DNA of 64,000 nt from contig OZ020591.1 in NCBI GenBank assembly GCA_963971535.1, forward strand, positions 18,894,877-18,958,876. Reading direction: 5' to 3'. The notes beneath the pieces were generated by a model that was not told where the DNA came from, searched no databases, and was given only the letters and a program-made list of their open reading frames with translations. Source of the stretch: Notolepis coatsorum (taxonomy: Eukaryota; Chordata; Actinopteri; Aulopiformes; Paralepididae). The first letter of the stretch is position 1. Every line of letters starts with the position of its first letter. A program made the position numbers and the translations under genes. This document shows, piece after piece, positions 15,538 through 64,000 of this stretch.

Positions 15538-18300
15538 GATAGGTTATGTATATAACCTAGTTATATTAGTATTGGCTGAGCGTCCCGCTCTGAGCCTTAT
15601 GAGATACCCCTTATCTCCTATGATACCTATTGTATCCCAACGAACAACTAAATGCACCCACACCTGAAGGGGCCCCCGCCCCTATGGAGGCGTAGCCTAT
15701 ATAACCATGACTCTGGTCACCAAACACTCTTCCTCGCCAAATCTCGTTCCAGGAAAAGATCCCTCAAGAGGGAACTCAGGGCCGCGCAGAGCAGGACGCT
15801 CAGCCAATACTAATATAACTAGGTTATATACATAACCTATCGTTATATATCGTATTTGCTTATCGCGTCCCGCTCTGAGCCTTATGAGATATGGGTTAGA
15901 GCGGACGCGAGACCCGACAGATGTACCCCCTGAGGACCCGTAAGCCCACATCAAGGGGTGCGGGGAGCCCTGTCACCCCATCCTTCCTAATGAAGGGGGG
16001 GGCGCAGTCAACTCCACCTGAATGCGAACAAGAGGGAACTAGAACCCCTTGAACACACCGCACAGGCGGAACCACGTGTGACTCAACACACTGTGGCCCA
16101 TACCCATACACTCCTGCTACCCTTCCAAAGGACGGGAAGCAGGAAGGCCACAGACCCCAGAACCGCCTGGGAGACAGAACCCCCGGTCATGTCCATGAGG
16201 TAAAACCTTACAAAGGGGCCCGGGGAGGACCATGAAGCTGCAGCACAGATGTCCTCCACCGAGGCCCCACCCAGGAGAGCGGCAGAGGCAGCCACCCCAC
16301 GATTGGAGTGCGCCCTGACGCCCCCAGGGGGATCCTGCCCAGCCAACGTGTAGCAGAGGGCAATGCCCTCGCACAACCAATGGGACAGGCGCTGTTCGAT
16401 AGTGCCTTACCGGCATGAGAACCACCGTGACAGACAAAAAGCTGAACGGTGACCCCGAGGTCCTGAGTACGGCTGAGGCAATTCCCAAAGCACGGACCGG
16501 ACATGACGGGTGAAGGCCCGCATCTAACTCACCACCTTGAGGAGGCGGATGAAACGCCTGAACCACAATATCCCTGGAGCGGAAGAACTCCGGATATTTA
16601 CAGGCACGAAGGCAGGATTAGGCCGCAGAGTGGCACCGCAATCGGAACGAAAGACAGGCACTCTGGGCGTACCGAGAGAGCACAAAGCACACCCACGCGT
16701 CAGCGGAGGTGACGGCCAGCAAGAACGCGGTCTTGAACGACAGCTGTTCCAACGGCGCCTGCTCGAGCGGCTCAAACAGGGCCAAGGACAACCGACCGAG
16801 GACCAGTTGAAGATCCCAAGTCGGACCCCAGGAGCGTTGCACCGGCTTAACGCGCCGAGCGCCAAGCAGGAACGCTTCACAAGAGGGTGGCTGAACAAGA
16901 CATCCCCTCAAACCCCTCATGATAGGAGGATATAGCTGCTGCATATACCCTCACCGTCGAAGCCGACAGTCTATCAAGGAGAGACTGGAGGTAACTAAGG
17001 ACAGCATCCAGGGGGCAGGAGACTGAGTCCCGGCCCCCCGCCTTACACCACACTTGGAACATACGTCATCTGCCCGCGTAAGCGTGACAGTGGAGGGAGC
17101 ATGCGCATTCCGGATGGTAACACCATCAGGATCAAGAACCTGTGCCCCTCAACGTACCCGTCCCAACAACTGACCTAACAGATGTATGGGGAAGAATCCC
17201 TGGCGGCACGGCATCGGTCCCAGACCTGCCTGGCTATGTCCAGACGTAATCCTCACCCGTCAGGATGAGGACCGCCCCGCGACAGTACACCTGCACCCAC
17301 ATTCTCCCTGCCGGGGATGTGGGGAGCCCTCAGGCCGCGCAGATGGAGGACGCCCATAGCCAGCCGCCCGCCGCCTGGTGCAGACAGGGGGAGCGTACTC
17401 CTCCCTGTCTGTCGATACACGACACTGACGTCGTATCGTCCGTCCTGATCAACACCATTTGTGGACCAGAAGGACCGCTTTCAACACCAACACATTGAAC
17501 GTAGCGCAGACCGGGCAGCATGGTTTGCCAGCTGCCCCCTACTGCGTTGGCCCGACGCGTCACCAGCGAGGGAGGCGTCGGTGAAAACGCGACATGAGAC
17601 AGCGCCGTAACCGTCCTAGGACGGAACCTCCCGAGCGTGTTGACAACACGCTCTGAGAGGGATGCCCATAGCCCACCAACTGTTGACTGGGAAGAGGAGT
17701 ACTCTACATCCAGTCTACAGCAACCCCAGGCTGGTAGAGACCTGCCTGGTACGAGACCTGACGATCCACCTTGACTGCGAAGGACCAGAACGTCATCAGG
17801 GCAGAACACTCCGTAACCCCTGACGACGCAGAGGCCCCAGTGCGGCCTCCACGCACTTGGTGAAGATGCGGGGAGCCAGAGAAAACCGAACGGCAGCCTC
17901 TGGTACTCATACGCTAACCCTGCAAAGGAAGCGTAGGTAAGCCCTAGGATGGAAGATCGGAGATGCACATACGCATCCTACAGGTCTATGGAGGAGAACC
18001 AGACCCCCACCTGACAGTGTTCAACAGGTAGGAGACGATCCAAAAAATGCTGAACCTTCCCATGGGACAGGTCCAGCCTGGGTCTTACACCCCTCCCTCC
18101 CGACTTCTCAGGCAGAGAACACCGGGAGGAGAACGCCACGACGATGGCTTGCTTCGTCCACAGAGATTGGATCTCGTTAACCAGAGCTGTCACTGCTGGA
18201 GACCCTGACAATAGGGTCTGTACCAAACCTGAAAACGGGTGGGGTTGTGTAAACACAAGTCCCCGCCTCAGCGTTCTCTCCATCCACCTCGACATATGGT
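15538..18300 (-). mobile_element. DIRS 3' half, copy 2, continuing into the single-copy part
   Basis: Repeats the terminal/complementary region (15538-15888), the recombinase region (16118-17070) and the reverse-transcriptase region (17230-18255), then continues past the duplicated part. Broken fossil. Confidence 0.88.
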
Positions 18301-43892: not shown

Positions 43893-46800
43893 GTCAAGTC
43901 AAGTCAAGAGTTTTAATTGTCACGGCATACAGGTATACAATGAAATGCGGCTGGTCTTGCCCGCGACGATGTGCAATACAGTGGTACAACATATAATAGA
44001 ATCCAATAAAATACAGTGGTACAACATATTAATAGAATCCAATAAAACAGTGCAATAAACAGGTACATGGTGTGCCATCTCGGTATCTGTACATTAGTAT
44101 TTACAGAGCATATAGGACATGCTAGGTAGCTTTAGTAGTGCAATACACTGTTCCTGATGCTATACTACTTTAAGTGGCCTTTCCTCTGGCCATAAGTGTG
44201 CGTGTGTGCGGCATGAGTGTTAAAGTGGCTGCTAGTGTGTGAGCGTGCTCAGCGTGCGTGTCGTGTATGTGCTTGTGTGTGGATAGTTCAGTTTCTGTGT
44301 CTCTCCATGTTCATTGTTCAAGGCTCTGATGGCCTGGGGGAAGAAGCTTAGCCTAAGCCTCTCCGTCCTAGTAGCTGGAGTTCGCAGGCGTCTGCCTGAC
44401 CTCAGCAGCTGGAACAGGCTGTTATTGGGGTGGTGGGGGTCTTTCATTATCCTGCAGGCTCTGGATTTGCACCTCTTGTTGTATAGAGCCTGCAGGGGAG
44501 GTAGCGCAATACCCGTGGTACGCTCGGCTGAGCGCACCACACTCTGTAGGGCCTTCTTGTCCCGTGCCGTGCTGTTCCCATACCAGGCAGTGATGTTTCC
44601 GGTCAAGATGCTCTCTACAGCTCCTGAGTAGAAGGACTGGAGTATCTTCCCCGATACTCTGAACTTCCTTAACTGTCTCAGGTGGTAGAGGCGCTGCTTC
44701 GCTTTCTTTACTACTGTGTTTATGTGTGTTGACCATGTCAGGTCCTCTGAGATGTGGACCCCCAGGTACTTGAAGCTGCTCACCCTGTCCACGGTAGCCC
44801 CGTTAATCGTCAGTGGTGTGTGTGTCTCCTGCTGTCCTCTCCTATAATCCACGATCAGCTCCTTGGTTTTACCAATGTTCAGGAGCAGGCTGTTGTCCTG
44901 GCACCAACGTTCCAGTACCTCAACCTCCTCTCGGTAGGCCTTCTCGTCGTTGTCCGAGATCAGCCCCACCACCACCGTGTCGTCGGCGAACTTCACAATG
45001 GAGTTGGAGCTGAACTTGGCCGCACAGTCGTGTGTGTAGAGTGAGTACAGCAGGGGGCTTAGAACACAGCCCTGGGGGGACCCGATGCTCAGGGTGATGG
45101 TGTTGGAGGTCTGACCCCCCACCCTGACCGCCTGGGGTCTTTCACTCAGAAAGTCCAGTACCCAGGCGCTCAGGGCGGAGCTCAGGCCTAGCTCGATCAG
45201 CTTGTCCACCAGTCTGGTGGGGACTATGGTGTTGAACGCTGAGCTGTAGTCAATGAACAACAGTCTCACATAGCCCCCCTTCTGACGGTCAAGGTGGGAG
45301 AGAGTGCTGTGCAGTACCTGGGAGACCGCGTCATCAGTGGACCTGTTTGTCCTGTATGCAAATTGCATAGGGTCCATATCACTGGGGAGAGAGGCACAAA
45401 TGTGGTCCTTGACCAGCCTCTCGAAACATTTCATGACCACAGAGGTGAGTGCCACCGGTCTGTAATCATTTGGACATGTTGGGGAGGGTTTCTTCGGTAC
45501 AGGGATGATGGTAGACATCTTGAAGCAGGCAGGGACTACTGACTCCGCCAGGGATTGATTAAATATGGCGGTGAACACCGGGGCAAGCTGGTTTGCACAG
45601 GACTTAAGTATGCGTCCTGTTATACCATCTGGGCCTGCAGCCTTCCTGGTGTTCACCTGCATAAATGCTCTTCTCACACTGTGTTCCGACAACGAGAGAG
45701 CGCCCCCGCCCCCCCGCGGTTGCCCCCCCCCCTCCACAACAGCCGGTGCGCCAGTGACGTCACTAGCCAGAGGGCTAGCGGCGACACTGTCTACACCGAA
45801 CCGAGCGTAGAAGGAGTTGAGTTTGTCCGCTAGAGAGGCGTCGTCGCTCCCCATTGAGGGGGCGCTGACTTTGTAGTCAGTTATTGTCTTCAGTCCCCTC
45901 CACAAGCCTCTTGTGTCGTTTTGTGCCATTTGTGTCTCCAGTTTCTCAGCATATGTCCTCTTAGCAAGTTTAACAGCCTTGCGCAGAGTGTAGACTGAAG
46001 CCTTGTACTCTTCCATATTTCCTGACTCTCTGCCCAGGTTATAAGCCGTGGTGCGTGAGTTTAGGGCTGTTCTTATAGTGCTGTCCACCCAAGGTTTCTG
46101 GTTTGGGAAAACCCGCGCCTTCTTTGTGAGGACAATGCCGTCTACCACTGTTGCTATGTAACAAACAACGGTATCAGCGTACTCGCTGACGTCACTGGCG
46201 CTTCCTTTAAACATGTCCCAGTCTGTATCCGCGAACGCGTCACAGAGATCGGTCTCTGATTCGTCAGACCACTTTTTTGTCTCACGTGACACGACAACGT
46301 CACGCGATCTTTGTTTGTATGCTGGAATAAAAAAAATGGAGTCGTGATCGCTCGCGCTTGTAGAGCCCATCAGTGGCGGAGCCGTTACAGCCTTGTAGGC
46401 AGCTCTGAACGGGGTGTAGCAGTGGTCGAGTGTGTTCCCCCCTCTTGTGGAGCAGGCGATGTGCTGAAAAAAGGTCGGCATCACTTTTTTCAGGTTTGCC
46501 TGATTGAAGTCACCAGTCACTATCGTCGCGGCTTCTGGGTGCTTGATCTGCTGTTTGTTGATGTAGTCGTGTAATTCCCCCAGCGCTTTGCCAGTATTTG
46601 CCTGTGGGTGAATATACACGACGGATAAAATGACCGCGGTAAACTCACGGGGTAGGTGATACGGGCGACACAGGATCTGGAGATGTTCCATATCTGGGGA
46701 GCATGAACTTGAGAGGACATGTACTTCCTTGGGATTAACCCAGAGATTGTTCGTGAGGATGCAGACCCCACCTCCGATGCTCTTCCCAGAGGCTGCCGTG

Positions 46801-47410
46801 CGATCTGCTCTCAGGACGGTGAAATTGTCCGATGGAGAGACGCTGTTGTCCGGCGTCGCTGGCTTGAGCCATGTCTCAGTGAAACACATGCCGTTAACGT
46901 CTCTCATCTCCCGTTGGAATCGGACCCTCGCTCTCAAGTCGTCCATCCTTCCCTCCAACGAACGTGCATTCGCCAGAAAGATGGATGGAATTGCTGGACG
47001 GTAAGCAGATCTTTTTAATCTAAGTCTGATACCGCCTCGTCTACCTCTATGCTTCTTTCTGCAGTTTCCTTTGTTGTCGTTCTCCCGCTTGATTTCTGTT
47101 AGCCATTCTGGGCATAAAGTGTCTACCAACTCCTCTTTGAGTCCGGAGTTTAGGTCCATAAGTGTCTGGCGGTCGTATGACATACCCGCCAGTGATGCTG
47201 GGAGGCGGGGGGCTATTGGCTCGCTTTCTCAGTCTCACCAGGAGGCCGGCTCTGTGGCTCTCTTTCTGCGTCTCTTTGACCTCGGCAGCACTGCGTTGAG
47301 CGGGTCTGCTGCAGTTCGTATGAACAAAGGATCTTTGTGTAAAAAAACTCCAGTTTTGGAGTGATCGTCAAATCTTGTATGTCCAGTAGTGCCTCTCTGT
47401 CATATCTGTC
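43893..47410 (-). mobile_element. LINE family B relative, near full length
   Basis: Minus-strand element: ~230 bases of 5' sequence (47184-~47410, where another frame reads DRYDREALLDIQDL, probably the true N-terminal region), ORF2 (44232-47183), and a 3' UTR ending in a ttgacttgacttga tail at 43893-43908. It inserted directly beside or within the older endonuclease fragment. It is the youngest-looking LINE in the window. Confidence 0.88.
44232..47183 (-). CDS. LINE ORF2, endonuclease-reverse transcriptase, 983 codons, uninterrupted
   Basis: APE-type endonuclease at about residues 65-290: PSIFLANARSLEGRMDDLRA, CFTETWL, TGDFNQANL, NTLDHCYTPF and the catalytic SDHDS. A linker of ~200 residues follows. 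The reverse transcriptase starts at about residue 500: [55 protein letters not shown] and catalytic KFADDTVVVG. The C-terminal domain has AWYGNSTARDKKALQSVVRS and LSFFPQAIRALNNEH. All expected catalytic motifs are present with no stop or frame change. The annotated ATG may not be the true start, since LINE-like text appears upstream in another frame. The protein would nick DNA and copy its own RNA. Clade: CR1/L2/Rex1 group; the exact family needs a database. Confidence 0.9.
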   Translation of the reverse strand: MSYDRQTLMDLNSGLKEELVDTLCPEWLTEIKRENDNKGNCRKKHRGRRGGIRLRLKRSAYRPAIPSIFLANARSLEGRMDDLRARVRFQREMRDVNGMCFTETWLKPATPDNSVSPSDNFTVLRADRTAASGKSIGGGVCILTNNLWVNPKEVHVLSSSCSPDMEHLQILCRPYHLPREFTAVILSVVYIHPQANTGKALGELHDYINKQQIKHPEAATIVTGDFNQANLKKVMPTFFQHIACSTRGGNTLDHCYTPFRAAYKAVTAPPLMGSTSASDHDSIFFIPAYKQRSRDVVVSRETKKWSDESETDLCDAFADTDWDMFKGSASDVSEYADTVVCYIATVVDGIVLTKKARVFPNQKPWVDSTIRTALNSRTTAYNLGRESGNMEEYKASVYTLRKAVKLAKRTYAEKLETQMAQNDTRGLWRGLKTITDYKVSAPSMGSDDASLADKLNSFYARFGVDSVAASPLASDVTGAPAVVEGGGQPRGGGGALSLSEHSVRRAFMQVNTRKAAGPDGITGRILKSCANQLAPVFTAIFNQSLAESVVPACFKMSTIIPVPKKPSPTCPNDYRPVALTSVVMKCFERLVKDHICASLPSDMDPMQFAYRTNRSTDDAVSQVLHSTLSHLDRQKGGYVRLLFIDYSSAFNTIVPTRLVDKLIELGLSSALSAWVLDFLSERPQAVRVGGQTSNTITLSIGSPQGCVLSPLLYSLYTHDCAAKFSSNSIVKFADDTVVVGLISDNDEKAYREEVEVLERWCQDNSLLLNIGKTKELIVDYRRGQQETHTPLTINGATVDRVSSFKYLGVHISEDLTWSTHINTVVKKAKQRLYHLRQLRKFRVSGKILQSFYSGAVESILTGNITAWYGNSTARDKKALQSVVRSAERTTGIALPPLQALYNKRCKSRACRIMKDPHHPNNSLFQLLRSGRRLRTPATRTERLRLSFFPQAIRALNNEHGETQKLNYPHTSTYTTRTLSTLTH

Positions 47411-47647
47411 ACCTTTTGTGTAAAAAGTAGGGATTTTTACACAATCCCACAACCGATACCGATATATGCAGGGTTTCCCCCCCAAAAAAACGGAATCATT
47501 TCAGGTAATTAACATTACATATCTCTTGTCGTATTAACACAACATTATGCATACTTTTGACAATAAATATAATAAGAATTTGTTCTTACTTGCTTGCCTG
47601 GGTAAATAAAGGTTAAAGGTCTCATGCATTATAAATGGCCTTTTCCA
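47411..47647. other. no recognised gene; repeat-tail text
   Basis: Includes cttgcctgggtaaataaagg, a frequent fish repeat 3' end, at 47594-47615. No coding signal. Confidence 0.35.
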
Positions 47648-48494
47648 GTGTTTAGTAGGGGTGGAACGGTTCACAAAATGGACGGTTCGGTTCGTATCAC
47701 GGTTTTGGGGTCACGGTTTTTGGTTCGGTTCGATATACGTTGTCCAATTATCTAGCAGTCTCAGTCAATGAGTCAACTAGATGTCCCCCTTGGAAGGGTG
47801 TGGGCGAAATGACTTATATTCAAACCAGTGAAACAATTCGGACTTTATAAGAATGTTCGTTTATTTGGACTTTAATGTCCGGCATCCAATTCCTCCTCGT
47901 TGTAATAATCACCAGGTGGTCAATTAAACAAGTGGTTAGCTTGTAGCTGATAGTTAGTAGCAGCTTACATCCAAGCATTAGTGGATAATGTTAGTAGAGG
48001 TCGATATGGTATTTGGTAATGTTCAACCAAGTCGACGTTGATAATAGTTCGTTGATAGTTAGGTTGCAATTTAGCAACCGCCGGTACTTGATAGTGTAGC
48101 CAGACGTTTAGCCAGCAGTAGCCAGGTAACAGTTAGCCAGACGTTAGTCAGTAGTGTACATTCAGTCAGCGTTTAGTCAGCAGCGTATAATCGGACGTTA
48201 ATCAGTCAGTCAGATTATTTACCTATACAAAGGAAAGGAAATAAACAGCATTAATTAGTAACTAGATATATGAATTAAAGGGGACATGTACTGCTATTCC
48301 TAGCACTATTTGGGCAACTTTACACAATTCCTGTTAGTCTATTGAAGACATCTGTAAGGTTTTTTTCAAAAAAATGCATTGTTTTATATTTCTAATCAAG
48401 TACTCAAAACCATAATTTTTCAGCTTCAAGATTTCAGGCTGTTATGGCCTGGCTCCGCCCATAAGCACTTTGAGTGACAGTCAGTCCACACAGT

Positions 48495-48700
48495 CTGCGA
48501 CTGGTAGACAGAGAGAGATAGAGAGAGAGAGAGAGGGGGGGGGGGTGCGAGAGAGAGAGAGAGAAAAAAAAGACAGGCCGTCTCTTCCATTCGTTTTATC
48601 TCTCCCTGCGGCAGAGAGAGAGAGAGAGGGAGACAGAGAGAGAGGGAGGGAGGGAGCACTTGGGGGGGGGGGGGGGGGGGGCCTCCCTTTCTCCCCTCTC
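48495..48700 (+). repeat. GA-rich simple repeat with a 20-base G-run
   Basis: gagagaga tracts at 48508-48572 and 48613-48655, then G at 48662-48681. A CT-rich counterpart lies at 50765-50850 in the same element, so the two can pair. Length is likely unstable. Confidence 0.9.
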
Positions 48701-48814
48701 CCGTGTGCGTGTTGCTTATTAACAGCGGAGGAGTGCAAGAATGTGACAATGTGACCATGTGACCGCGGCAGCGCGAGAGAGCGGCAGTGCAGAAATAGGC
48801 TGTCTATTGCCATT

Positions 48815-49077
48815 CTCTAAGACAAACGCTAACCTTAACCAGCTCCTTAACAGTGCCTAAACTTAACCCTTCTAACCTTAACCAACTCCGAAACAATGCC
48901 TAACCTTAACCTTAACCTTAACCATGCCTAACCTTAACCTTAACCATAGAAAGAATATTGCCATTCTCTAAGACAAACTCTAACCTTAACCAGCTCCTTA
49001 ACAGCACCTAAACTTAACCCTTCTAACCTTAACCAACTCCGAAACAATGCCTAACCTTAACCTTAACCATGCCTAAC
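48815..49077. repeat. taacctta-rich repeat
   Basis: Two ~150-base units with cctaaccttaaccttaacc strings. It resembles interstitial telomere-like text but is not (TTAGGG)n. Similar text is in the arms of the palindrome at 33685-34006. Confidence 0.7.
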
Positions 49078-50471
49078 TGTAACTGAGGGGTACAATTCCC
49101 TGACTGTATTGATAAGTATGGTATTATTAAACCACTACCGCTTGTACTTTAACTTCTGGCCATCCAGTACATGATATAGATATGATGAACACTTTCCCAC
49201 CTGATGAAACGAAGTCCACACAAATGTATAAATCGAATATTTTATATAGCAAAGGGTATATACAACGTTCACTTAATGACATTTATGATTTGAAATGCAC
49301 TTGTAAGGCAAATGAGTATTCGTAGGTAAATCAACATTGAATGTCCAATCTCTGGTTACGCAGGGAGCAAATATACAACCTGGTTCTTTAGGGAACTATA
49401 GCGATGGTACTTAAATGATTATAGCTGGATACACTAAAGGGGGGTCCCGCTGGTTGTAAGACAGTAGGGGGGGGGGTTAGAAGAGCCGCTGGCGGTATCC
49501 CATCTGGCCGACGATTTCTTGGGAGAATTCAGAGTGCTGAACACGGTGCCCACAGAACCTCGGTCCGCAGATGAATACAGCTGGGCCCTCTGGTGGACGG
49601 TAGCTGCCGGTCCACAACGAAGAGACGTGAGGCGACCTCACTTGGGGTAGAGCGCCGTCTCACCTGGACTCCTCTCCGGGGGGTAGTTCCAACACTCAGC
49701 AGTGTTGGCCGTTATCCATGGCATAATCAAAGCACCCAAAGCATGTAGATAATCCAAGCCGTGGAAGGCTCGCCGTCGTCCGGGTAAAGTAATCCAATGT
49801 ACAGGTCCACTCGTCCTGGCCCGGAGCTCCTCGGATGCAAGCACCACACGTGGTCTGCCCAGCCTGGTTAAGACTCCAGATAACGTCAGGAACGATGGGG
49901 GTACTGCTCACTTTATAACTCTAACCGAACGATGCACCATACATAATAGACTATTATTAACTTAATAGAAATACGTCCAACTCGACGGTATAGTGCCAAA
50001 CTATGACAATTCAACTATTAATCCACACGATGTCTCAATGCTTATTCTGAGGCCAAGTAGGCCATACTGCACCACACGTGCGTCGTGGGTGAGGCTTCGC
50101 GTCTGTTACTAGGTTGGAGGGTAAAGGACTAATGGACTAAAAGAAAGTTCTACTTTACTTGCGCCATATATATATGCGCTGTGAACAAATAGTACCATTC
50201 GTATTTCGCCAGACTTATTCCTACGCGGAACCGGGCTTGTAACGACATGTTGGTCGGCACGATTGAACTTGAACCAAGGGGCTTGGCTGCTGGCGCCAGG
50301 TTCTTGTCCAATGGTAGAATGAAACTATTATGGGCTGTTAGTAGACTAAAGGGATATTCAGTGCATATTGTACAAGGAATATACAGGGGATATCAAACGA
50401 TATACAAATACTATTAAATATATATCCATAAATAAATATATATATTCGGTTTAATCTGATCCTTCACAACA
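49078..50471. mobile_element. solo LTR, 1394 bp
   Basis: Starts TGTAACTGAGG and ends CCTTCACAACA (TG...CA) with a 5-bp target duplication CTAAC (49073-49077, 50472-50476). No internal coding sequence, so a full element recombined to leave one LTR. Family unknown and orientation undetermined. It is the innermost and youngest layer of the four-level nest, though its own age cannot be read. Confidence 0.8.
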
Positions 50472-50510
50472 CTAACCTTAACCGGCGAAAGAATACACGT
50501 TAAAAAAAAG

Positions 50511-50585
50511 AAAAAAATTGATGGGATTCGAACTTGTCACCAACGGACCGCAGGACCGCAGCGCTGCCAGGTGAGCTAAGCTTCG
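50511..50585 (-). other. tRNA-like segment (SINE head or tRNA pseudogene)
   Basis: The minus strand reads TTAGCTCACCTGG (box A style) and, about 35 bases later, AGTTCGAATCCC (box B style), at roughly tRNA spacing. The anticodon arm is not clean. It is probably a tRNA-derived piece captured by the piggyBac-like element. Confidence 0.5.
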
Positions 50586-51663
50586 AATGAAAATCATTGC
50601 GGATTACGGCTACATAATGCCGCAAGCTCTGCCGCAAGCTCTGCCGCTCCGCTCTGCGGCTGCCGCGCCTGCTGCGGGGCGACACGCCCATCAGGGAAAA
50701 CGCGGAAGCACTCGGCTGTTAATAAGCAATAAGCCTCCCGTGTGGCGCGGCAGTTCCCCCCCCCCCAAGTGCTCCCTCCCTCTCTGTCTCCCTCTCTCTC
50801 TGTCTCTCCCTCTCTCTCCCTCTCTATCTCTCTCTCTCTCTCTCCCTCCAGAGTGTATGCAGAGGTGTCGGGTTTCACTCTGCCTCGCAGTATGAGGAAG
50901 TGGTTTTCCACTCGCTGTCTAGTCTAGGTAGATTGTGGGCGGGCATTAGCTAAAACCACAGAGCCAATCACATCACTGTCTTCTACCCAGAGCCTGAGTA
51001 ACGTCATTCAGGCCTTCAAATCAGGATGGACTAATTTACTGGAGCAGGAAATTATCTGAGCTGAATCAGAGCAATCCGCCAATATGGTATTTAGACACTA
51101 AAACACATTGATACTAACTCCTATTACTATAATACAATGCTAGAGACTGAAAAATTACATTTATAGTACATGTCCCCTTTAAAGATAAATGCGGATATTA
51201 ACGGCGCATACAATGCAACGTACCGTTGGCCAGTCAAGAGTTCGCCCACAGGGCTTTTCACCTTACAGTCTAGGCTAAGAGTGTCACTTAAATAGCGCTA
51301 CGCGCCGGCGCAGAGACAGCTTACCTGCTCAGAGTCGCAATACGTGCTCCAAAGTGCGTCCACTAGGCGGCACCAGATAATAACTAACTCATGCAATAAA
51401 TGTATACAATAAATGTTACTCATGATAATAATGAAGGATAATAATGATAAATATTGGGAAAAACGTCGGATAATTCTCCACCTCCCACTTAGTTTTCTGA
51501 ACGTCAGGCTCATAAAACTATCCAAACTATACAAAGTGATCCCGGTCTATATTATTATTATTTCTTTACAGGGGCACGAAGAATTAAACTATGCCGCATT
51601 TACGGTGGTAGCACAAGCGGCTCCCGCGAAAACTACTCAGGTTATGTCGGCAACGGATGATTC

Positions 51664-51915
51664 TTGACGTCCTCAATCCTGCCAGAAACAAGCGACTTTT
51701 GACGTCCTTCTTTGTGCCAGAAACAGTCGACTTTCGACGTCCTTTGTGCCAGAAACAGGCGACTTTCGACGTCCTTCTCTGTGCCAGAAATAGGTGACTT
51801 TCGACGTCCTTTGTGCCAGAAATAGGTGACTTTCGACGTCCTTTGTGCCAGAAATAGGCGACTTTCGACGTCCTTCTCTGTGCCAGAAACAGGCGACTTT
51901 CTACGTCCTTTTCTG
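51664..51915. repeat. BEL/Pao 3' tandem repeat, ~30-35 bp unit, about 8 copies
   Basis: Unit: gccagaaacaggcgactttc, then gacgtccttctctgt. It lies between the integrase region and the purine tract. Confidence 0.9.
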
Positions 51916-51916
51916 G

Positions 51917-54900
51917 TCATTGTTCCTCGAAAGGTAGAAGTACCACCAACCTCCTAACGTCCCTGTGGAGGACGGTGGTAGGGCACACCCCGACGTGACG
52001 ATCACGCTTGGGATGACCGGCGGTAACGGGAAGGCTATGGCAAGTCCTTACTTCCACTTCTCTGATGATACCCTTCGGGTCAGGGTGAGTCTTTATCACT
52101 CGGCCCAGTCGAAACTGGCCTCTGAGTGCGTTCTGGTCCGCAAGCCAGACCAGGTCTCCTTTAGCAACATTCCTAGCGGGAATGTGCCACTTCTTCCGGA
52201 CGAAGAGTTCTGGTCCCGCCAGTTGGCTCCATTTTCTCCAGAACCTGTCCACTTCAATCTGGATTGCTCTCAGACGGACGAAGGGGTAGCTAGCGGACTC
52301 GAAACCTCTGGGGTCTCCACGAGGCCTTGCACGTCCCAGTAGGAGAGTGTTGGGGGTGATGACCTCAATGGTGCCATCCCGAAGCTGGGCGTTGGCACCA
52401 ATAGGCCTCTCATTTGATAGATTGGCAGCTAGGTATAGGAGGGTTTGGAACTCCAGGGCCGTAAAGGCTCCCTTCTTTGCCTAAGCTGCTTAGTGCTCTT
52501 TTCAATACTCTCACAGCTGCTTCAGCCGCACCATTCCTATGAGGAGAGTCAGCGGCGTGGAACACCCAAGTCCAATCTGTTCCAGACTCTGCGGCTTACT
52601 TCTGTACCTTGTTATTGTCGATATTCGCTAGGAACTTATAAAGTTCTTCCAGCGCTGGCTTTGCTCCCACGAAATTAGTCCCTTTATCGTACCAGAGCTT
52701 CCTAGGATGGCCTCTCAATGCAGTGAAGCGTTTGGAACGTTTTTAGGAAACCTTCGGTCGAGAGGTCTTCCACTATGTCGGCATGTATCGCTCTGGACGC
52801 CATGCAGCAGAAAACTACGCCCCAGGCTTTCTTACTTGTCCTCTTTTTCACTGAGTCTTTGATCGTGTAGGGACCAAAGAGGTCCAACGTGGTATACTCG
52901 AATGGTGCGGCCGGCTCTGTGCGCTCCGGGGGGAGTTTGCTCATGATTTGACGGCACATTTTTGCCTTGTTCTTTCGGCAGTCTATACACGAGTCAATTG
53001 TACTTCGGGCTACTCTTGGCCCCTGCACAACCCAGGCTTTGTCTCTCATGCGCAAGAGGGTTCCTGCAATGCCCTCATGGTTTGCCCTGTGGGCTTCCTC
53101 TGCCAGGAGGATGCTGACCCATTCCCTGTAGGGAAGTAAGGGCACCCCATGCCATTCTTTGGCCATGGCTTGAACTCTGCCGTGGTACAGCAAGAGTTTG
53201 GAGTCCTCCTCTTTGTGGACCACAAGTCTGTCCAGTGTGGTCACGGGGAATTATGCGCCTTCCTGTGCGGCCAGGCATAGTTCTTTGAATGCGCTTTGCA
53301 GTTCGTTTACAGTTAATGCCTCCCAGTTTAGCAATGTGCGGGTTGGCAAACGTGCTTTCGTCGTCTGGGCCTTCCGGGTTTTTACTGTTGCCCAGAACTT
53401 TAGTGCACTTCGGATGAAGCCGACGATGCTGCAGAGTGTCTTGAGAGAACTGTATCTCCTTGGGTTTATCTGGCCTACGAGAGCCCCACCCCAAAGTTTG
53501 TCGGGGGTTCTGTTTGGCGAGATAATGATATCTGATTCTTCTTTTATGGCTGTTATCTTTCCTTCCCCTGAGCTGGCAGGGGAAGGCATTGTCTTTGCTT
53601 GCGCTCTTGTGATAGCAACTGTGAAGGCCTTTCTTTGAAGCCTACTTACTGCGTCTCTCGCAGCGGTAGCTACCTCTGAGGCTGATTTCTTTGGCCATTC
53701 CTCTTCGGGATAGGCGAGGAAATCAGGGCCGCATTGCCAAGCAGAGTCCTCTCCGAGTAGCTCTGGGGAGCAGCGGCCTCTTGTGACCAGGTCAGCAATG
53801 TTGCGTTCTCCTGGTACCCACCACCAATCAGTGACGGGACCAGCCTTCTGGATCTCTCCGACCCGATTCGCGAAGAATGTCTGGAATCCATAGCTTTCTC
53901 TTTGGATGGCACCCAGCACCGTCCGACTGTCGACGAAGTGGAACCATCTCTCGATTTTGATTCTTCCATGTTTAAGCACATACTTTTTTAGACGGGATGG
54001 GAACACCGCCCCACAGATTTCCGCCTTTACTGGATCACCTCTAAGGTCAAGAGGGGCCAGTTTCGATTTTGACTCCACTAGCCGGGCGACTGCTCCCCCA
54101 GACGTCTCCTACCGTGGATACAGTACTGCGCCATAGGAATCACAGCTCCCGTCTGAGAACGTGATCCCCCATGGCTTGCCCAACCAGCCGGCGAACGTGA
54201 TACTTCTTGGGAATGTGACGCGGCTCAGGCGAGCGTATTCCTTGAACAACTCCACTGCTTTCTATCGGAGCTCCTCTGATAGTGGCTGGTCCCAAGTGTC
54301 CTTGGTAATTTTCCCAGCCTCCTGGAATGCTCTTCTCACTAGGATCACTCCCTTCTGCTTGAGTGGAGTTGCGAGACCAATCGGGTCATACAGTCCTGCG
54401 ACTTGGCTGAGTAGGACTCGGCGTGTCAGAGGGTTAGGCGTCCTCTCTATGATATTTTCTTCGGCTAGATCTGCTTCCATCCTCATCTTTTGCCTTCTCC
54501 GGGAAAAGTTGATGGATGCCATTACGAAGAGCTTGTCTTCCTGAACAAGGTAGCCGACTCAAAGCCTTGTTATCTTCATCCTTGAGTTGGTTCGGTAGAA
54601 CTAGTGTCTCTGGCTTGGTCTCCGGGGCGTCATGCCTCCCACTGTGACCAGATCGGTTTGAGGTGGAAGCCGCCTGGATCTCTTCCAGTCTGTGTGAGTC
54701 ATTGTGTGATACGAGGAGATCGTCCACGTAGCTGTTGTCCACGATGACAGATCTTTCATCAGTTAGATGGGAGAACCGAGGGAGGTATGCGGTCTCTCGC
54801 ATAGCGACTTGGGCAATACATCCGGCCGGCTTGTCTCCCATATTCACCCTGATGACGGCATAACCTTCTATCTCGTCTTGCGGTGAGTCTCTCCATAGAA

Positions 54901-56119
54901 AGCGGTGTACATGAACTTCCTCCTCTTCCAGCCACACTGAGTTGTACATCTTTTTGATGTCACCGATGGCTGCATGTTCTCCTTCCCGGAATCTGAGGAG
55001 TACCGCACGGATTTGCTTCAGCACATCAGGACCTTTCAGTAGGATATTGTTCATGCTTACACCTCTGTATTCTTGGCTGCTGTCCCAGACGATGCGTACT
55101 GGAGTGGTGACGGAGTGTGGGTTCGGTGCGGTCAAGTGACTCACGTACCATACTGCTCCTTTCCATTGGTCCATCATAGACCTAGTTAGTTTCACGGCAG
55201 CTCCTCTCTCCACCATTTCGTGGATTTGCCTGGTATAGGCGACTTTCCATGAAGGATCTTTCTCAAGGCACTTCTCTGTCCTGAGGAAGGTTGATTCCAC
55301 AGCTCGGCGATTGTTAGGGAGAGATGCTGGTTGTTCCTTCCAGGGGTACTTTGCATCCCAGTGGGAGTCCCCACAGTGCGAGTCTTTCTCCTTGAAGGTC
55401 AAGCCAGCCTTGATGGTCTCTAGCTCCCGCTCGTCAGCCAGTGTCATCTCCTTTCCTCCAGGAGGCCAGTTACCGCAGCGACACCCCCCACAGACGGGGT
55501 CACAGGCTGCTCCGATGCTGTCCCATTTCAGCCAGTCGAAGACTTCCTTGTTGCTTGCGGCAGTTACTGCTTCTTTTATGCTTTTCCTCCTGGTTAAGTC
55601 TACCGTGAGGTGTTTGCATTCTCTCACGACAGTTGTTCCCATGGAGCGTGCGAAGTGGGTCAATGAATGAAGCGTGGTCATTTTTACTTCTTCAAAGAGG
55701 TCCGGATGCGCACCGCTCACAGTTTTGCCCAGTGGGCCGTCCCATAGCACCAGATCACCGGCTCTCTCCATTCTTTGTGGGGCCAGGCAACCTTCCCGGG
55801 TGCTAATGAGCAGATCAATGGTATCAGGCCGGGTCAATTCTCCTGGCTTGACACATGGGAAAAACTTTTCTAGTCTCTTGGAGTTCACCACTCTGTCTAC
55901 TTTGGCGATGTCCTCAAGGCCGTAGCAGAGCATTTCGTGGGCCCTCAAGGTCCCCTTCGGGGTCCATACTTTTATTGCTACCACATACCTCTTGGTATCG
56001 ACTTTGACTGCCATCTTCCCAACACCGTACACGACCAGTGTGATAGGCTCGCCGGCCAGCCCGAGCCTCTTGGCGGCTCTGTGTGTGATATAGTTGGTGT
56101 CGGAGGCAAGGTCCATCAA
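51917..56119 (-). pseudogene. BEL/Pao pol region: protease, reverse transcriptase, RNase H, integrase
   Basis: Minus-strand order: aspartic-protease-like start (MMDLASDTNYITHRAAKRLG) near 56.1 kb; reverse transcriptase with VRIVWDSSQEYRGVSMNNIL and catalytic YVDD near 54.72 kb; RNase H region around 53.3-54.1 kb; integrase with a His/Cys zinc region (AHRANHEG ... CIDCRKNK) and TTLDLFGPYTIKD around 52.7-53.2 kb; and the BEL-type C-terminal domain (NALRGQFRLGRVIKTHPDPK) near 52.0 kb. Protease before RT with integrase last is the BEL/Pao order. Broken fossil. Confidence 0.9.
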
Positions 56120-56137
56120 CGCTCCAACACAGTCTCC

Positions 56138-58380
56138 TCATCTCGTCGTGACGTCCATGAGCATCATGAGGACTGGGTATTCTTTTATGCCACTTTTGTC
56201 CAACAGGCTCTTGCTGGCGTACACTTGGGAGGTCGCTTTGTTCGTGAAGGCTTTTCTGAATGCTTCCATTTGGAGCGTTGACAACTTTAACTCTGTGACC
56301 ACCTTCTCCTGCTCAGCCGTAAGGCCTCGGAGCCCTTTACGAGCGCCGGGCTCATTGGTTGTTTTGTTCCTGCTCTGTGTCTTGGAGCAGAGGAGAAAAT
56401 GATGGTTGACAGGGCCGCCCCCCTTCACACACTCATCCTTCTTACAGAGGAACCTTTTCTCGCATAGGCCGTTGGCCCCGTGATAAGCGAGGCATTTGAT
56501 GCATGCTCCAGCTTTCTTCACCTGGGCTCGTTTCTCAAGTAGTTTAGCCTTCTTGAAGGCCGAGCAGAAGTAAAGTCTTTTCCCATGTGCTTCCTCTCCA
56601 CACATGGTGCACGAGTCCCTCTGGGGCTCCCTTCTTACTTCGCTCGATGTCGTTCTTGTAAATGACCGTCTATCACCTCCCCTGTCGCTCAGCCTTTCAT
56701 GCTGGGTTGGACTTTCGCCAGCGTGGGTGGCTCCGATCTCCAACTGTGCTAGCCTCTCGAGGATCCTTTCCTGTCCTTTCAGAAATGAGAAGAGTCTATC
56801 GAAGTAACTTGCGGGCGTGACGCCATTTGCGGGGTCACGCTCATAGGAGATCCACTTCTCTCTCATGCCTATAGGCAGTTTTCTCTCTATGGCGGCAACA
56901 GTTAGGTGGTTTTTGATCACGTCCTCCATCCCAAGGTCTTTTAAGTCGTACAGTGCGGTTTCCACTGCCTGGACCAGGTCGATCATTGGCCTAGGCTGGT
57001 TACTCCGTACTGGAGGCACTTCTTCCAGACCTTTGAGGATCAGACTTGCGGTTGTGCTCCTGTCTCCAAAGCGGTTGTCCAGGAGCCTGAAAACATCGTC
57101 CGCTGTTCTGCAGCGATCCAGCCTGAGTTTCTTTCTCAGTGGCTCTTCTACGCTGTCAAGAAGGTGATATAATTTGCATACAGGCAATCCTGATGGTTCG
57201 GCTAAAGCCTGGGGGTCCTCCCAGTTATCCCGCCAGCGCCAATAGGTCCTTCTGTCGCCACAGAATTTGGGCAGATTGATGGCGGCGAGCTTTATCTTTG
57301 GTCGGGCCCCCTGGTGGTCTCTGTGGTGAGCGAGACCTTCCCGCGTTGCGCCCTCATCACCTGGTGGCGTGGCGTGGTCACCTCGTGACTGAGGCATGAT
57401 AGTGAGGTCAGCGCTCTGGTTAAAATAGGGTTCGCTGCCGGGTTGTCTTACCCGTGGGAGCGAACTCCTGTCGGTATACTCGTGAGGCCCACTTCTTGTG
57501 GTCTTTGCTCCAAGCTGGAGATGGGTTGCTTTAGGGGCCCCCTCGTGGCTCCCGGAAGGTAAGGGAGAGTCTTTGTAAGTGCCCTCTGTTTGACTACTGT
57601 CAAGCTGAGGAGATGACGAGTGAAGTGAAGAACCACACTTTTGCCGTTGGTGGACGGGGAAGGTTTAGCTTCCGCGGCACGTTGCAGAACATCGTTTGCA
57701 ATATCAAGTGGGCTGGTTACGTCACCACCCCTTTCAATGTTGTGTGTCCTTATATCCTCTTCATCCTCATAAGCACTTCCAATGTCACCCTTTCCACCAG
57801 GCTCTAGGAGGGTCGACCACCTGTCCATCAGTGCTGCTCTTTCCTCGTCCAAGTGCCTGTACCGCTTCTCTAATTCAGATATGTTGGGAGTTGGGAGAAG
57901 GTATCTCCACTCTCTCACCATTTGTTCGAAGGCGTTGAGTCTTCTCTCCAATTTGTTTCCCTCCAACGCTCTCTTGTCTTGGGGTGCCCATTGGGTGCTG
58001 AGTCTCTTTGTCTCTTCCAAGGCCTCCTTGAACTCCACTTCAAGGGGGCCTAACTTTGGTTGAACGAAGCGGGACCATACCTCCGAGAGGATCTTCTTCT
58101 CCAGTGCCACTTTCCTCTGCTTGCTTCCGTCTTTCTTTGCTGTGGCGTCGGCTATCACGGTAGCATGCGCAGTTCCGTCGGCCTCCTCCAATGCTCCAAC
58201 ATAGTCCCCCGTCGTGTCAACGAGCTTCGCAAACTCTATTTGAAGAGCTTTCCTGTCGTTGACGAGCTCCGCTGGCGATGCGGTGTCAACATTGTCAGCT
58301 ACCTGGTTGGCTCTCCTTGTCAAAGCTGTTTGCGCCGCAGTACGCCTCTTCTTTAGCTCTTCCACATCTACACCCTCCAT
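56138..58380 (-). pseudogene. BEL/Pao gag region
   Basis: Minus strand from 58.38 kb: an N-terminal charged helical part (VEELKKRRTAAQTALTRRAN), a capsid-like middle (PKFCGDRRTYWRWRDNWEDP; LLDNRFGDRSTTASLILKGL) and a Cys/His-rich end (CTMCGEEAHGKRLYFCSAFK ... CIKCLAYHGA), as in other Pao gag proteins. Broken fossil. Confidence 0.88.
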
Positions 58381-58517
58381 TTTGTCCCAGTCAGCCGTTG
58401 CCGGCAGTAGTAAACAATGGGGTTAACAGTCAGAAGCACAGTTGTACAGTTGGCGTGTAGCAGTGTGATTACAATGACACTGCTCTCAGCAGGGGATATT
58501 GACGGGACCGTATAGTG

Positions 58518-58780
58518 GGTCAACGTAGTTTCGCTTCACTCACTTGAAACCTGGTCATGGCCACAATGTGAGTGAACAAGTAGGATAGAGTTGGTGAGCA
58601 CCGTTACAGCTTCTTCACTCACTTGAACCTGGTAATGGCCACAATGAGAGTGAACAAGTAGGATAGAGTTGGTGAGCACCGTTACAGCTTCTTCACTCAC
58701 TTGAACCTGGTAATGGCCACAATGAGAGTAAACAAGTAGGATAGAGTTGATGAGCACCGTTACAGCTTTTGGTTAATTCA
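58518..58780. repeat. BEL/Pao leader repeat A, ~77-bp unit, 3 copies
   Basis: Unit contains cttcactcacttgaacctgg, then taatggccacaatgagagtg, then aacaagtaggatagagttgg. Lies upstream of gag. Confidence 0.92.
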
Positions 58781-58792
58781 TTTATAGTACAG

Positions 58793-59305
58793 TTCACGAC
58801 GTGAAGTGCAACAATATAATTGCAAAGTTCAACACAGCCAAGGCATAGATGTGTCAATGATAATGTTCACAACGTTTGGAGCAACAAAGTAGTTGCTTGG
58901 TTTGACACAGCCAAGGCATAGGTGTCAATGATAATGTTCACAGCGTTTGGAGCAACAACGTAGTTGCTTGGTTTGACACAGCCAAGGCATAGGCATGTCA
59001 ACGATAATGTTCACAGCGTTTGGAGCAACAACGTAGTTGCTTGGTTCGACACAGCCAAGGCATAGGCGTGTCAATGATAATGTTCACAGCGTTTGGAGCA
59101 ACAACGTAGTTGCTTGGTTCGACACAGTCAAGGCATAGGCGTGTCAATGATAATGTTCACAGCGTTTGGAGCAACAATATAATTGCAAAGTTCAACACAG
59201 CCAAGGCATAGGTGTCAATGATAATGTTCACAGCGTTTGGAGCAACAACGTAGTTGCTAGGTTCAACACAGCCAAGGCGTCGGTGTCAATGATAATGTTC
59301 TTTAG
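58793..59305. repeat. BEL/Pao leader repeat B, ~73-bp unit, about 7 copies
   Basis: Unit contains cacagccaaggcataggcgt, gtcaatgataatgttcacag and cgtttggagcaacaacgtag. Copies are highly alike. Confidence 0.92.
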
Positions 59306-59875
59306 CTAGCATTGGCGGTCAGCAGTGTTGTGTTAGCATTCTTTGGCTAACAGCGTTAGCATTGGCATTGGTTGGCTAGCGGTGTTAGCATTGGTTGGCT
59401 AATGGCTAGCGTTTAGCATTGGCGGCTAGCAGTGTTAGCATTCTTTGGCTAACAGCGTTATCATTGGTGGCTAGCAGTGTTAGCATTGGTTGGCTAACAG
59501 TGTTAACATTGGTTGGCTAATGGCTAGCGTTTAGCATTGGCGGCTAGCAGTGTTAGCATTCTTTGGCTAACAGCGTTAGCATTGTCATTGGTTGGCTAGC
59601 GGTGTTAGCATTGGTTGGCTAACAGCGTTTAGCATTTAGCATTGGCGGCTAGCAGTGTTAGCAGTCTTTGGCTAACAGCGTTAGCATTGGTGGCTAGCAG
59701 TGTTAGCATTGGTTGGCTAACAGTGTTAACATTGGTTGGCTAATGGCTAGCGTTTAGCATTGGCGGCTAGCAGTGTTAGCATTCTTTGGATAACAGCATT
59801 AGCATTGGTGGCTAGCAGTTTTAGCATTCTTTGGCTAACAGCGTTAGCATTGGTGGCTAGCAATATTAGCCCACC
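59306..59875. repeat. BEL/Pao leader repeat C, gttagcattgg/ggctaac compound repeat
   Basis: Short units (ggctagcagtgttagcattc, tttggctaacagcgttagca) arranged in higher-order blocks of about 48 and 130 bases. Confidence 0.9.
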
Positions 59876-60101
59876 ACTTCAAGCAGCCAACATGTGGGCG
59901 GAATATGGCGATTCCAACCCAGTAAGCAGTCAACATCAACGTTTCACTTCCCTTGAGCTGACTGCGTCCTCTCCAATGTGCCCCGTCGTGTGTATCCACT
60001 CCGTCCTGGTTCCACCTTGACGTTGAGGGGGTATCTCATGCGGCACTTCCTTCTGCGTTCCGTCCGTCCCGTCTTGTAGCGGGGCGCGTGCGGTAAATAA
60101 T

Positions 60102-60787
60102 TGTCCAATTATCTAGCAGTCTCAGTCAATGAGTCAACTAGATGTCCCCCTTGGAAGGGTGTGGGCGAAATGACTTATATTCAAACCAGTGAAACAATTC
60201 GGACTTTATAAGAATGTTCGTTTATTTGGACTTTAATGTCCGGCATCCAATTCCTACTCGTTGTAATAATCACCACGTGGTCAATTAAACAAGTGGTTAG
60301 CTTGTAGCTGATAGTTAGTAGCAGCTTACATCCAAGCATTAGTGGATAATGTTAGTAGAGGTCGATATGGTATTTGGTAATGTTCAACCAAGTCGACGTT
60401 GATAATAGTTCGTTGATAGTTAGGTTGCAATTTAGCAACCGCCGGTACTTGATAGTGTAGCCAGACGTTTAGCCAGCAGTAGCCAGGTAACAGTTAGCCA
60501 GACGTTAGTCAGTAGTGTACATTCAGTCAGCGTTTAGTCAGCAGCGTACAATCAGACGTTAATCAGTCAGTCAGATTATTTACCTATACAAAGGAAAGGA
60601 AATAAACGGCATTAATTAGTAACTAAATATATGAATTAAAGATAAATGCGGATATTAACGGCGTCCACTAGGCGGCACCAGATAATAACTAACTCATGCA
60701 ATAAATGTATACAATAAATGTTACTCATGATAATAATGAAGGATAATAATGATAAACATATTGGGAAAAACGTCGGATAATTCTCCA
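60102..60787 (-). repeat. BEL/Pao 5' LTR
   Basis: Matches the 3' LTR with ~1% substitution. It lacks the piggyBac-like insertion and so shows that element's empty target. I did not recognise a tRNA primer-binding site next to it. Confidence 0.93.
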
Positions 60788-62214
60788 TACGTTGTTTTTT
60801 ATTTTAAAAAGAATTTAACACTCAAAAATCTAAACATGCTTCTCATTTATTAAAAAATTTTAAAAAAAAAGTTTACAGTGTTACAGTGTTTACAGCCTTA
60901 AATAATGTTTGGCACACAATGACCGAACTGACTGAAAAATATAGGCTACATTTGTCAAAGTATTAACTTAGTGCAAACAAACAATATGCTCAGCCAGCAC
61001 TAGACTTTCCTTTCTTTAATATAAACACAAAAAACAATGTCAACAATGTTTAAATTCCCTGATTGTCAGTTCTTAATGGAAAGATTCGTTTTCTGCTTGA
61101 AATTAAAGTGCAGTATTTGAAATACAATGAAAGGAATATGGCTGGATTTCTTATCAAAGGGAAAAGTGTCACTGTTATTTAAAATAAATAAATAAACAAA
61201 TTAGAAGGTCATCAATATAAATTGCAGCATACATCAAACTAACACACACACACTGTCCTGTTTCAAAACAACACTGCTCTGTTCATTCTATTTAAAAAAT
61301 ACATCCATTATCTGTCTACATTTATTTAGACTAACATTATTTAAATATTGAGTGCAAATGTGGTTGATTGCGTAATTCGGTGAGTTGGAACTAACTATGG
61401 GTTGGCGGGTCCCCACGGACATTTTAGTGTCACGGACCTTCAGCTCAGGCAACGTTATCAGCTTCGGTAATGTTAGGAGGAGTTCATAACATCAACATGC
61501 AGTGGAAAAGCGGCAATAGTTCCGGTTGGAGTTAGTAAAACACAGTTGTATGTTAGTCTTCTTGGATGTTGAATAAACGCCTATCATTTAAACACTCCGC
61601 CTCTCAGACTCCCATTTCCTCCTCTGCTAGCTAGTAGCCACGATAACATTGCATTGACTGTATTAGCTGGCGGGCTACCATAGTTCAACATGCGTTGTGT
61701 TGTACAAACTGCTAACGCTATGGCAAGATGTGTGTAGGCCTATGTAATGTTAATGGCTATGTTTTTAAAGTCGTAATGAAGATTGATTTATATTGTGCTT
61801 GCCATTTTTACACAAACTGACTAGCACCTCCAGTGCTGCTGCTGCTGCAGCCAGCGCTCACCTCTCCCGGCTCCGGCAAATGACGTTTTTAATTTTTTTA
61901 TTTGCGCATCATCTGAACCGTACGATACACAGACGCCCCCGAACCGTGGGGGTCGTACCGTACGGTACACGGTTCGAATGCGTATCGTTCCACCCCTAGT
62001 GTTTAGCATTGTTTCCTAGCAATGGGGGATTATATCAATGTGGTCTGTGTCTCTAATTATCATATTGACTCATCAGTCTAGTCTCGAGTTCACGAGATCG
62101 TCCCTCACTCAACTAAGCCGTTCTGATTTGACTGTTTTGCTGAATAAGGCACTGGTTGACAACAGAGCGAGTGGATTACTTCCTCAAACAGCTTGCAGAG
62201 TCCGACAGACAGCA

Positions 62215-62697
62215 GAGAAGGAGAGAGAGAGAGAGGGAGGGAGAGGAAGAGGGAGAGAGAGCGACCGCATGCAGGAGTGTGTGTAAAAATGTGTGTGCGC
62301 CGTCTCTTGTCGGAGCATTTACACACAAACTTGACTGCGTGTGTGTGTTTTCGGGGATGCATCTCTCCTCCCTCTCTCCCTCTCTCTGTCTCTGTCTCTC
62401 TCTCCCTCTCTGTCTGTCTCTGTCTCTCTCTCACTCTCTCGTTTGCTCGTTCTCTCTCTCGCTCTCTCTCGTATGTATCACGCTGTGTGGGTGACTGTCA
62501 CTCAAAGCGCTTATGGGCGGAGCCCAGCCAAATCAGCTTGAACTCTTGAACTAGAAAAATGCTGTTTTTGAGTACTTGATTAGAAATATAAAACAATCGA
62601 ATCTTTTTGAAATAAAACGTACAGATGTGTTCCATAGACTCACAGGAATTGTGTAAAGTTGCTTAAATAGTGAAAGGAATAGCAATGCATGTCCCGT
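62215..62697. mobile_element. partial copy of the 48279-51178 piggyBac-like family
   Basis: 62480-62697 is the complement of 48279-48490 (tgacagtcactcaaag-type text, taagcgcttatgggcggagc, tacttgattagaaatataaa) and ends catgtcccgt next to TTAA (62698-62701). GA and CT simple repeats fill 62215-62470. The other end is not found. Confidence 0.75.
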
Positions 62698-62882
62698 TTA
62701 AATAAATGTAAAAAAATAAACGATACAGATAATTTCCGATATTACATTTGAATGCCGATAATATCGGACATCCCTAGTAAAGACATTACTAAAAAACAAC
62801 ATCATAACTAAAAGAGTTGCTAGGTCGATAAGGAGCACACAACACATCTTACTTACTTATGTGGCGCCATCTTACTTACTGT

Positions 62883-63169: not shown

Positions 63170-64000
63170 ATCCACCCCCTGTCCTGCTGCCCGGCAACCA
63201 ATAGAGACATGGAGGAATTAAGACGTCATTCCTGTGACCAGTGTGGGGAGAGCTTCAAGAGAAAGACACATCTTAAACAACACCACATGGTACACACAGG
63301 AGAGAAACCTTACTGCTGTGACCAGTGTGACATGAGCTTCAAGAGAAAGTCAGCGCTTAAAATACACCACATGGTACACACAGGAGAGAAACCTTACTGC
63401 TGTGACCAGTGTGGGAAGACCTTCAAGACAAAGGGAAAACTTAAGATGCACCATATGATACACACAGGAGAGAAACCTTACTGCTGTGACCAGTGTGGGG
63501 AGAGCTTCAAGACAAAGTTTGAGCTTAAAAGTCACCACATGATACACACAGGAGAGAAACCTTACTGCTGTGACCAGTGTGGGAAGACCTTCAAGAGAAA
63601 GACGCATCTTAAACAACACCACATGGTACACACAGAAGAGAAACCTTACTGCTGTGACCAGTGTGACATGAGCTTCAAGACAAAGACACATCTTAAACGT
63701 CACAACATGGAACACACAGGAGAGAAACCTTACTGCTGTGGCCAGTGTGGGGAGAGCTTCAAGAGGATGACAGGACTTAAACAACACCACATGGAACACA
63801 CAGGAGAGAAACCTTACTGCTGTGCCCAGTGTGGGAAGAGCTTCAAGACAAAGGTAGAGCTTAAAGTTCACCACATGATACACACAGGAGAGAAACCTTA
63901 CTGCTGTGACCAGTGTGGGGAGAGTTTCAAGACAAAGGCAGAACTTAAACGTCACCACAGGGTACACACAGTAGAGAAACCTTACTGCTGTGACCAGTGT
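63170..64000 (+). CDS. C2H2 zinc-finger protein, terminal-type exon, incomplete at the window edge
   Basis: The exon opens IHPLSCCPATNRDMEELRRH and then carries nine complete C2H2 fingers, plus the first half of a tenth, at exact 84-base spacing. Each is C-x2-C-x12-H-x3-H, typically CDQCGESFKTKAELKRHHMV, joined by TGEKPY linkers (TEEKPY after finger 5 and TVEKPY after finger 9). All Cys and His ligands are present. The protein would bind DNA in the nucleus through the finger array; no KRAB or other effector domain lies in the window. The frame is still open at 64000. Upstream exons are not certain: an internal ATG at 63209 could also serve as a start, and 1798-2011 is a weak candidate. The fingers are very alike, suggesting recent internal duplication, as in large fish zinc-finger families. 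Confidence 0.92.
   Translation, partial: MHPLSCCPATNRDMEELRRHSCDQCGESFKRKTHLKQHHMVHTGEKPYCCDQCDMSFKRKSALKIHHMVHTGEKPYCCDQCGKTFKTKGKLKMHHMIHTGEKPYCCDQCGESFKTKFELKSHHMIHTGEKPYCCDQCGKTFKRKTHLKQHHMVHTEEKPYCCDQCDMSFKTKTHLKRHNMEHTGEKPYCCGQCGESFKRMTGLKQHHMEHTGEKPYCCAQCGKSFKTKVELKVHHMIHTGEKPYCCDQCGESFKTKAELKRHHRVHTVEKPYCCDQC

Follow-up and report, generated by a model that had tools for sequence, protein, structure and literature searches.

Results

Structure of the transposon nest

A 64,000-nucleotide stretch of contig OZ020591.1 of Notolepis coatsorum (hereafter the window) contains a set of transposable elements inserted one into another. We are highly confident that at least five transposons, inserting independently one after another and in a fixed order, produced this nest. 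From outside to inside, these are a T2/Kolobok-like element that duplicates TTAA (layer 1), a non-autonomous hAT-like element (layer 2), a decayed BEL/Pao long terminal repeat (LTR) retrotransposon (layer 3), a second T2/Kolobok-like copy in opposite orientation to the first (layer 4), and a putative solo LTR (layer 5) (Table 1). A previous sequence-only reading of the same DNA had described four layers, starting at the hAT element. All four of its target duplications are found where it had placed them, duplications and termini are exact in the four layers, and the insertion order that it gave for them is correct and fixed by the sequence. Two of the four junctions could be compared with an unoccupied copy within the window, namely the site of layer 4 and that of the innermost insert. 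The number of layers had nevertheless to be revised: there are five and not four, because the hAT element, which had been considered the outermost one, is itself inserted in another copy of the TTAA element.

The hAT element is inserted into an older copy of the TTAA element

When the window was compared with itself, the region to the right of the hAT element, once reversed, was found to match one end of layer 4 in 236 of 291 positions, the match ending at a TTAA. Compared separately with the other end of layer 4, the two flanks of the hAT element give weak matches (E values of 0.077 for the left and 2e-5 for the right flank). Upon joining both flanks with one copy of the target duplication GTGTTTAG, an unbroken match is obtained that runs from the TTAA across the join, with 77 of 104 positions identical and an E value of 4e-13. 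The joined sequence scores 75, whereas 5000 Markov resamplings average 17 and never exceed 31; among 25 offsets, the exact join that retains one duplication is the best. We conclude that the target of the hAT element was an older member, in reverse orientation, of the TTAA family that is seen again as layer 4.

Without the hAT element, layer 1 is about 730 bp long; it is flanked by TTAA at 47613-47616 and 62698-62701 and forms with layer 4 one T2/Kolobok-like family. Its termini have decayed to AGGTC at one end and to ACGGG, which is not strictly 5′-RR, at the other. Terminal decay tracks the order of the layers: the two termini agree at 10 of 14 positions in layer 1 and at all 14 in layer 4, so that the ends of layer 1 are more decayed than those of layer 4, as the insertion order predicts.

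The ends of the TTAA element are those of T2/Kolobok

Layer 4 measures approximately 1501 bp without the insert that it carries. Its first 14 bases are the same at both termini, which begin with AGGGGACATG, and the right LTR of the BEL/Pao element represents the empty site, as it reads straight across the TTAA. Kolobok and piggyBac elements are both described as duplicating TTAA, Kolobok elements as starting with 5′-RR (PMC9587614), T2 miniature inverted-repeat transposable elements (MITEs) as starting with AGGRR after the TTAA (PMC6004289) and piggyBac elements as starting mostly with CCC-type motifs (PMC10813416). Both copies in the nest have the TTAA duplication, and the inner copy has the AGGGG start at both ends, in agreement with 5′-RR and with the AGGRR of T2. 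The sequence-only reading had labelled the element piggyBac-like. Its TTAA duplication is compatible with that label, but piggyBac was rejected on the termini, AGGGG not being a CCC-type start. We file the element as T2/Kolobok-like, an assignment made by its ends and target site only. No Pfam transposase match was obtained for layer 4 with the two ORFs (open reading frames) searched, out of five of at least 80 amino acids.

The minus strand of layer 4 contains, at 50490-50600, a tRNA-like stretch with a T-run and with motifs that resemble the A- and B-box consensus; ARAGORN calls no tRNA gene in it, and Rfam yields no tRNA match at E values up to 1.

The hAT and BEL/Pao layers

The hAT element is split into two arms (47656-47739 and 60793-61998) that add up to 1290 bp. 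Both of its ends read TAGGGGTGGAACG, identical at 13 of 13 positions. These two ends are the only perfect copies of the 13-mer in the window; when up to two mismatches are allowed, four matches occur, versus a mean of 1.23 in shuffled sequences. Elements of the hAT superfamily generate an 8-bp target duplication and have short terminal inverted repeats (TIRs), and both features are found in layer 2. Of the 17 ORFs listed for the right arm, 6 were searched, and none showed a hAT transposase domain. This does not exclude a hAT element, because such an absence is expected for a non-autonomous copy.

BEL/Pao retrotransposons have LTRs of the TG...CA type and duplicate 4-6 bp of their target. The LTRs of layer 3 are of this type, and TACGT flanks the element exactly on both sides. 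Between the LTRs, the minus strand encodes, in this order, DUF1759, DUF1758, RVT_1, Peptidase_A17, Integrase_H2C2 and DUF5641, the last three of which exceed the Pfam cut-offs. The gag-pol region is broken, with no fewer than three frame changes and two in-frame stops, and inspection by eye only gave no clear tRNA primer binding site beside the 5′ LTR. That LTR lacks a 152-bp block which in the 3′ LTR extends from 51204 to 51355, has GCG common to both edges and includes, on the minus strand, the TATA-like motif TATTTAA; the 5′ LTR probably lost its promoter region after insertion.

Tandem arrays are present at both ends of the internal region of the BEL/Pao element. About 1.3 kb between the 5′ LTR and gag (58534-59870) is made up of three of them, with units of 78, 73 and 23 bp, and a further one with a 32-bp unit lies near the 3′ LTR (51680-51911).

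Divergence of the BEL/Pao LTRs

The alignment and dating of the two LTRs that the sequence-only reading had proposed were carried out. The LTRs differ by 6 mismatches in 689 bases and by indels of 152 and 2 bp, corresponding to a divergence K of 0.0088. All six mismatches lie in a 539-base piece and none in the remaining 150-base piece; since this clustering has a chance probability of 0.23, the alignment shows no trace of a converted tract. The insertion dates to 2.2 million generations ago at the rate of 2.0e-9 per base per generation given for a herring pedigree (PMC5524536), and to 0.7 million at 6e-9, an assumed value, and the counting error on six differences widens the age to 0.27-4.8 million generations. 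The sequence-only reading had taken a divergence of about 1% as an upper limit on the age of the two inner layers. It provides a rough age of the BEL/Pao layer and not a strict limit, because gene conversion between LTRs, which is common, makes LTR ages too young; in a survey of fifteen plant species about one-quarter of the nested elements had LTRs more diverged than those of their hosts (PMC7251063). By the logic of nesting, the inner layers must postdate the BEL/Pao insertion.

The state of the coding region was compared with this age. If they evolved at the rate of the LTRs, its 6506 bases should have acquired 28.5 substitutions and 1.2 nonsense changes; with indels assumed to occur at 0.1 to 0.33 per substitution, the expected number of disabling changes is 3.5 to 8.7. 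Coding decay does not contradict the LTR age, since at least 5 such changes were counted.

The innermost insert

Layer 5 has TG...CA ends and a CTAAC duplication, within the 4-6 bp that a solo LTR would leave. When its flanks are joined, 22 bases of a tandem array are restored as they occur in an uninterrupted unit. These structural features are the basis for reading it, like the sequence-only reading, as a putative solo LTR. The full-length relative that would accompany such an origin is absent from the window, which has neither a second nor a full-length copy of the insert.

Alternative readings of the nest

Several results weigh against the five layers as described above. The 291-bp match that relates layers 1 and 4 falls partly in a GA-rich tract. 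At its left end, layer 1 offers just 39 bp, which are diverged; this piece alone scores 31, equal to the resampling maximum, it matches by itself only at the E value of 0.077 already given, and its terminus, with four mismatches to the inner 16-mer, escapes the terminal pattern when up to three mismatches are allowed. For layer 3, the DUF1759, DUF1758 and RVT_1 matches (three of the six) are below the Pfam cut-offs, and the integrase core (rve) was not matched in the Pfam search of the open pieces. For layer 5, CTAAC sits in a CTAACC-rich array, which makes it less telling than a duplication of its length would otherwise be. That the nest consists of four layers only, with the hAT element outermost and a piggyBac-like third layer, is nonetheless very improbable: the exactness of the four named boundaries and a TTAA duplication common to piggyBac and Kolobok (PMC9587614) agree with it, but the flanks of the hAT element, once joined, yield another copy of the TTAA element, and the termini lack the CCC-type motif with which piggyBac elements are reported to begin (PMC10813416). 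We also consider it unlikely that the 1394-bp insert is an element of another kind, or an expansion internal to the array, instead of a solo LTR. Such an origin would accord with the window's lack of any further copy, full-length or otherwise, and with a duplication placed within the CTAACC-rich array; the TG...CA ends, the 5-bp duplication and an array that is restored exactly when the flanks are joined speak against it.

The five-layer nest might itself be enclosed in an older hAT-like element (candidate layer 0), a possibility that we regard as serious, although its case falls just short of balanced. To the left, positions 47420-47434 read GTAAAAAG TAGGGAT; to the right, the duplication is GTAAAGAC, with 6 of 8 positions in agreement, and the end, read inward, is exactly TAGGGATGTCCGATA. 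Terminus and duplication together score 13 of 15, a value attained in 4 of 20000 Markov resamplings of the left flank; this is the best site in the window, the next one scoring 11. The test was, however, devised after the sequence had been seen, the duplication is imperfect, and the termini agree for 7 bases only. In addition, a search with the 15-base terminus that allowed up to three mismatches gave four matches, a number reached by 4 of 100 shuffles, and the left end is not one of them; the window holds no second copy of the candidate. We put forward only tentatively, as the less favoured view, the complete six-layer order, which would run from a hAT-like element through T2/Kolobok, hAT, BEL/Pao and the second T2/Kolobok copy to the solo LTR, the TTAA family having been mobile before the hAT and after the BEL/Pao insertion and its copies having been moved by a long-lived Kolobok-type transposase.

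Table 1. Features of the nest, from the outside inwards (positions in the window).
Feature	Position	Strand	Evidence or remark
Candidate layer 0, possible hAT-like host of layer 1	47428..62776		TAGGGAT ends 7/7, duplication 6/8
Layer 1, T2/Kolobok-like, non-autonomous, interrupted by hAT, reversed relative to inner copy	47617..62697	-	Flanking TTAA, identity to layer 4, join test
Layer 2, hAT-like, non-autonomous	47656..61998		13-base termini, 8-bp duplication
hAT target duplication GTGTTTAG, left copy	47648..47655
hAT target duplication GTGTTTAG, right copy	61999..62006
Layer 3, BEL/Pao LTR retrotransposon, decayed	47740..60787	-	LTRs; Pfam domains in BEL/Pao order
BEL/Pao 5′ LTR, 687 bp	60101..60787	-	Without 152 bp present in 3′ LTR
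BEL/Pao 3′ LTR, interrupted by layer 4	47740..51480	-
BEL/Pao target duplication TACGT, left copy	47735..47739
BEL/Pao target duplication TACGT, right copy	60788..60792
Broken gag-pol	51917..58422	-	Pfam domains
Layer 4, inner T2/Kolobok-like element, in BEL/Pao 3′ (left) LTR	48279..51178	+	TTAA flanks, termini, empty site
Inner TTAA target duplication, left copy	48275..48278
Inner TTAA target duplication, right copy	51179..51182
Layer 5, solo-LTR-like insert, 1394 bp	49078..50471		TG...CA, CTAAC duplication
Layer 5 target duplication CTAAC, left copy	49073..49077
Layer 5 target duplication CTAAC, right copy	50472..50476

Neighbourhood of the nest and other searches

Beside the nest, the minus strand carries at 44232-47228 a long interspersed nuclear element (LINE) with an uninterrupted 998-aa frame that matches RVT_1 (E value of 8.3e-29) and ALKBH8_N; diverged pieces of a related LINE, 69-73% identical at the DNA level, lie at 4859-8486. 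Some 500 bases to the right of the nest, the plus strand contains an open C2H2 zinc-finger array (63209-64000) with nine zf-C2H2 stretches, which is preceded by a splice-acceptor-like tract and runs off the window. A 3.7-kb direct tandem duplication, 98.4% identical, occupies 10876-14589 and 14593-18258.

No tRNA genes were found within the window. An Rfam search of 43500-64000 at E values up to 1 returned 14 matches, all below the gathering scores and taken as chance; 12 of them fall in a GA/CT-rich tract at 62204-62451. In a viral contig collection, 0 matches each were obtained with the terminus patterns of the T2 element, the hAT element and candidate layer 0, and one BEL/Pao open piece gave one stretch that matched the pattern and none that was confirmed. 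A literature text search with the terminal strings of the elements (five) found none of them.

Discussion

The boundaries and target duplications of the layers, together with the kinship of layers 1 and 4, show the following history. A T2/Kolobok-like TTAA element arrived at the locus, and a non-autonomous hAT element cut into it. A BEL/Pao retrotransposon next integrated in the hAT element, and a second copy of the layer 1 family, in opposite orientation, jumped into the 3′ LTR of the retrotransposon. Lastly, a putative LTR element integrated in layer 4 and presumably collapsed to a single LTR by recombination between its LTRs. Layers 1 and 4 would have moved by TTAA-directed cut and paste, layer 2 by hAT cut and paste, and layers 3 and 5 by means of integrase. 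The DNA transposons presumably moved in trans, by transposases that we infer, because none of them has a matched transposase of its own here. Every element except the innermost is interrupted by a nested insert, so that layers 1 to 4 can probably no longer move as units.

The structure is ordinary in kind and unusually legible: it is a record of ordinary transposon history, and not a new system or mechanism. Nesting provides an absolute order of insertion without a clock. Since one T2/Kolobok-like family brackets two other superfamilies in time, it was mobile in at least two periods; T2-MITE families of Xenopus are described as long-lived (PMC6004289). Two points concern the annotation of nests: a decayed host can hide outside the layer that appears to be the outermost, and a TTAA duplication alone is insufficient to identify piggyBac.

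Each superfamily in the nest can be compared with its known members. Like hAT transposons, layer 2 has an 8-bp duplication and a short TIR, starting TAGGGGTG; unlike autonomous ones, it is non-autonomous, with no transposase domain in the ORFs searched. Layer 3 shares domain order, TG...CA LTRs and a 5-bp duplication with BEL/Pao elements and differs from intact ones in its frame changes, its stops and its shortened 5′ LTR. The TTAA element resembles the T2-MITE/Kolobok elements of Xenopus and other animals in that it duplicates TTAA and begins with AGGRR. In Xenopus, the A5 Kolobok subfamily starts with AGGGGAACTA, and simple-repeat arrays are likewise described inside T2 MITEs (PMC6004289). 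The element of the nest differs in that no transposase was found in the ORFs of it that were searched; with piggyBac it shares the duplication and not the start.

Transposon nests as such are well known, with LTR nests in plants (PMC7251063) and Rex1 inside Izanagi in medaka (PMC5789577) as examples. As in those nests, the order of insertion is read here from the nesting; unlike in them, four superfamily types alternate, and one family occurs twice, around two others in time.

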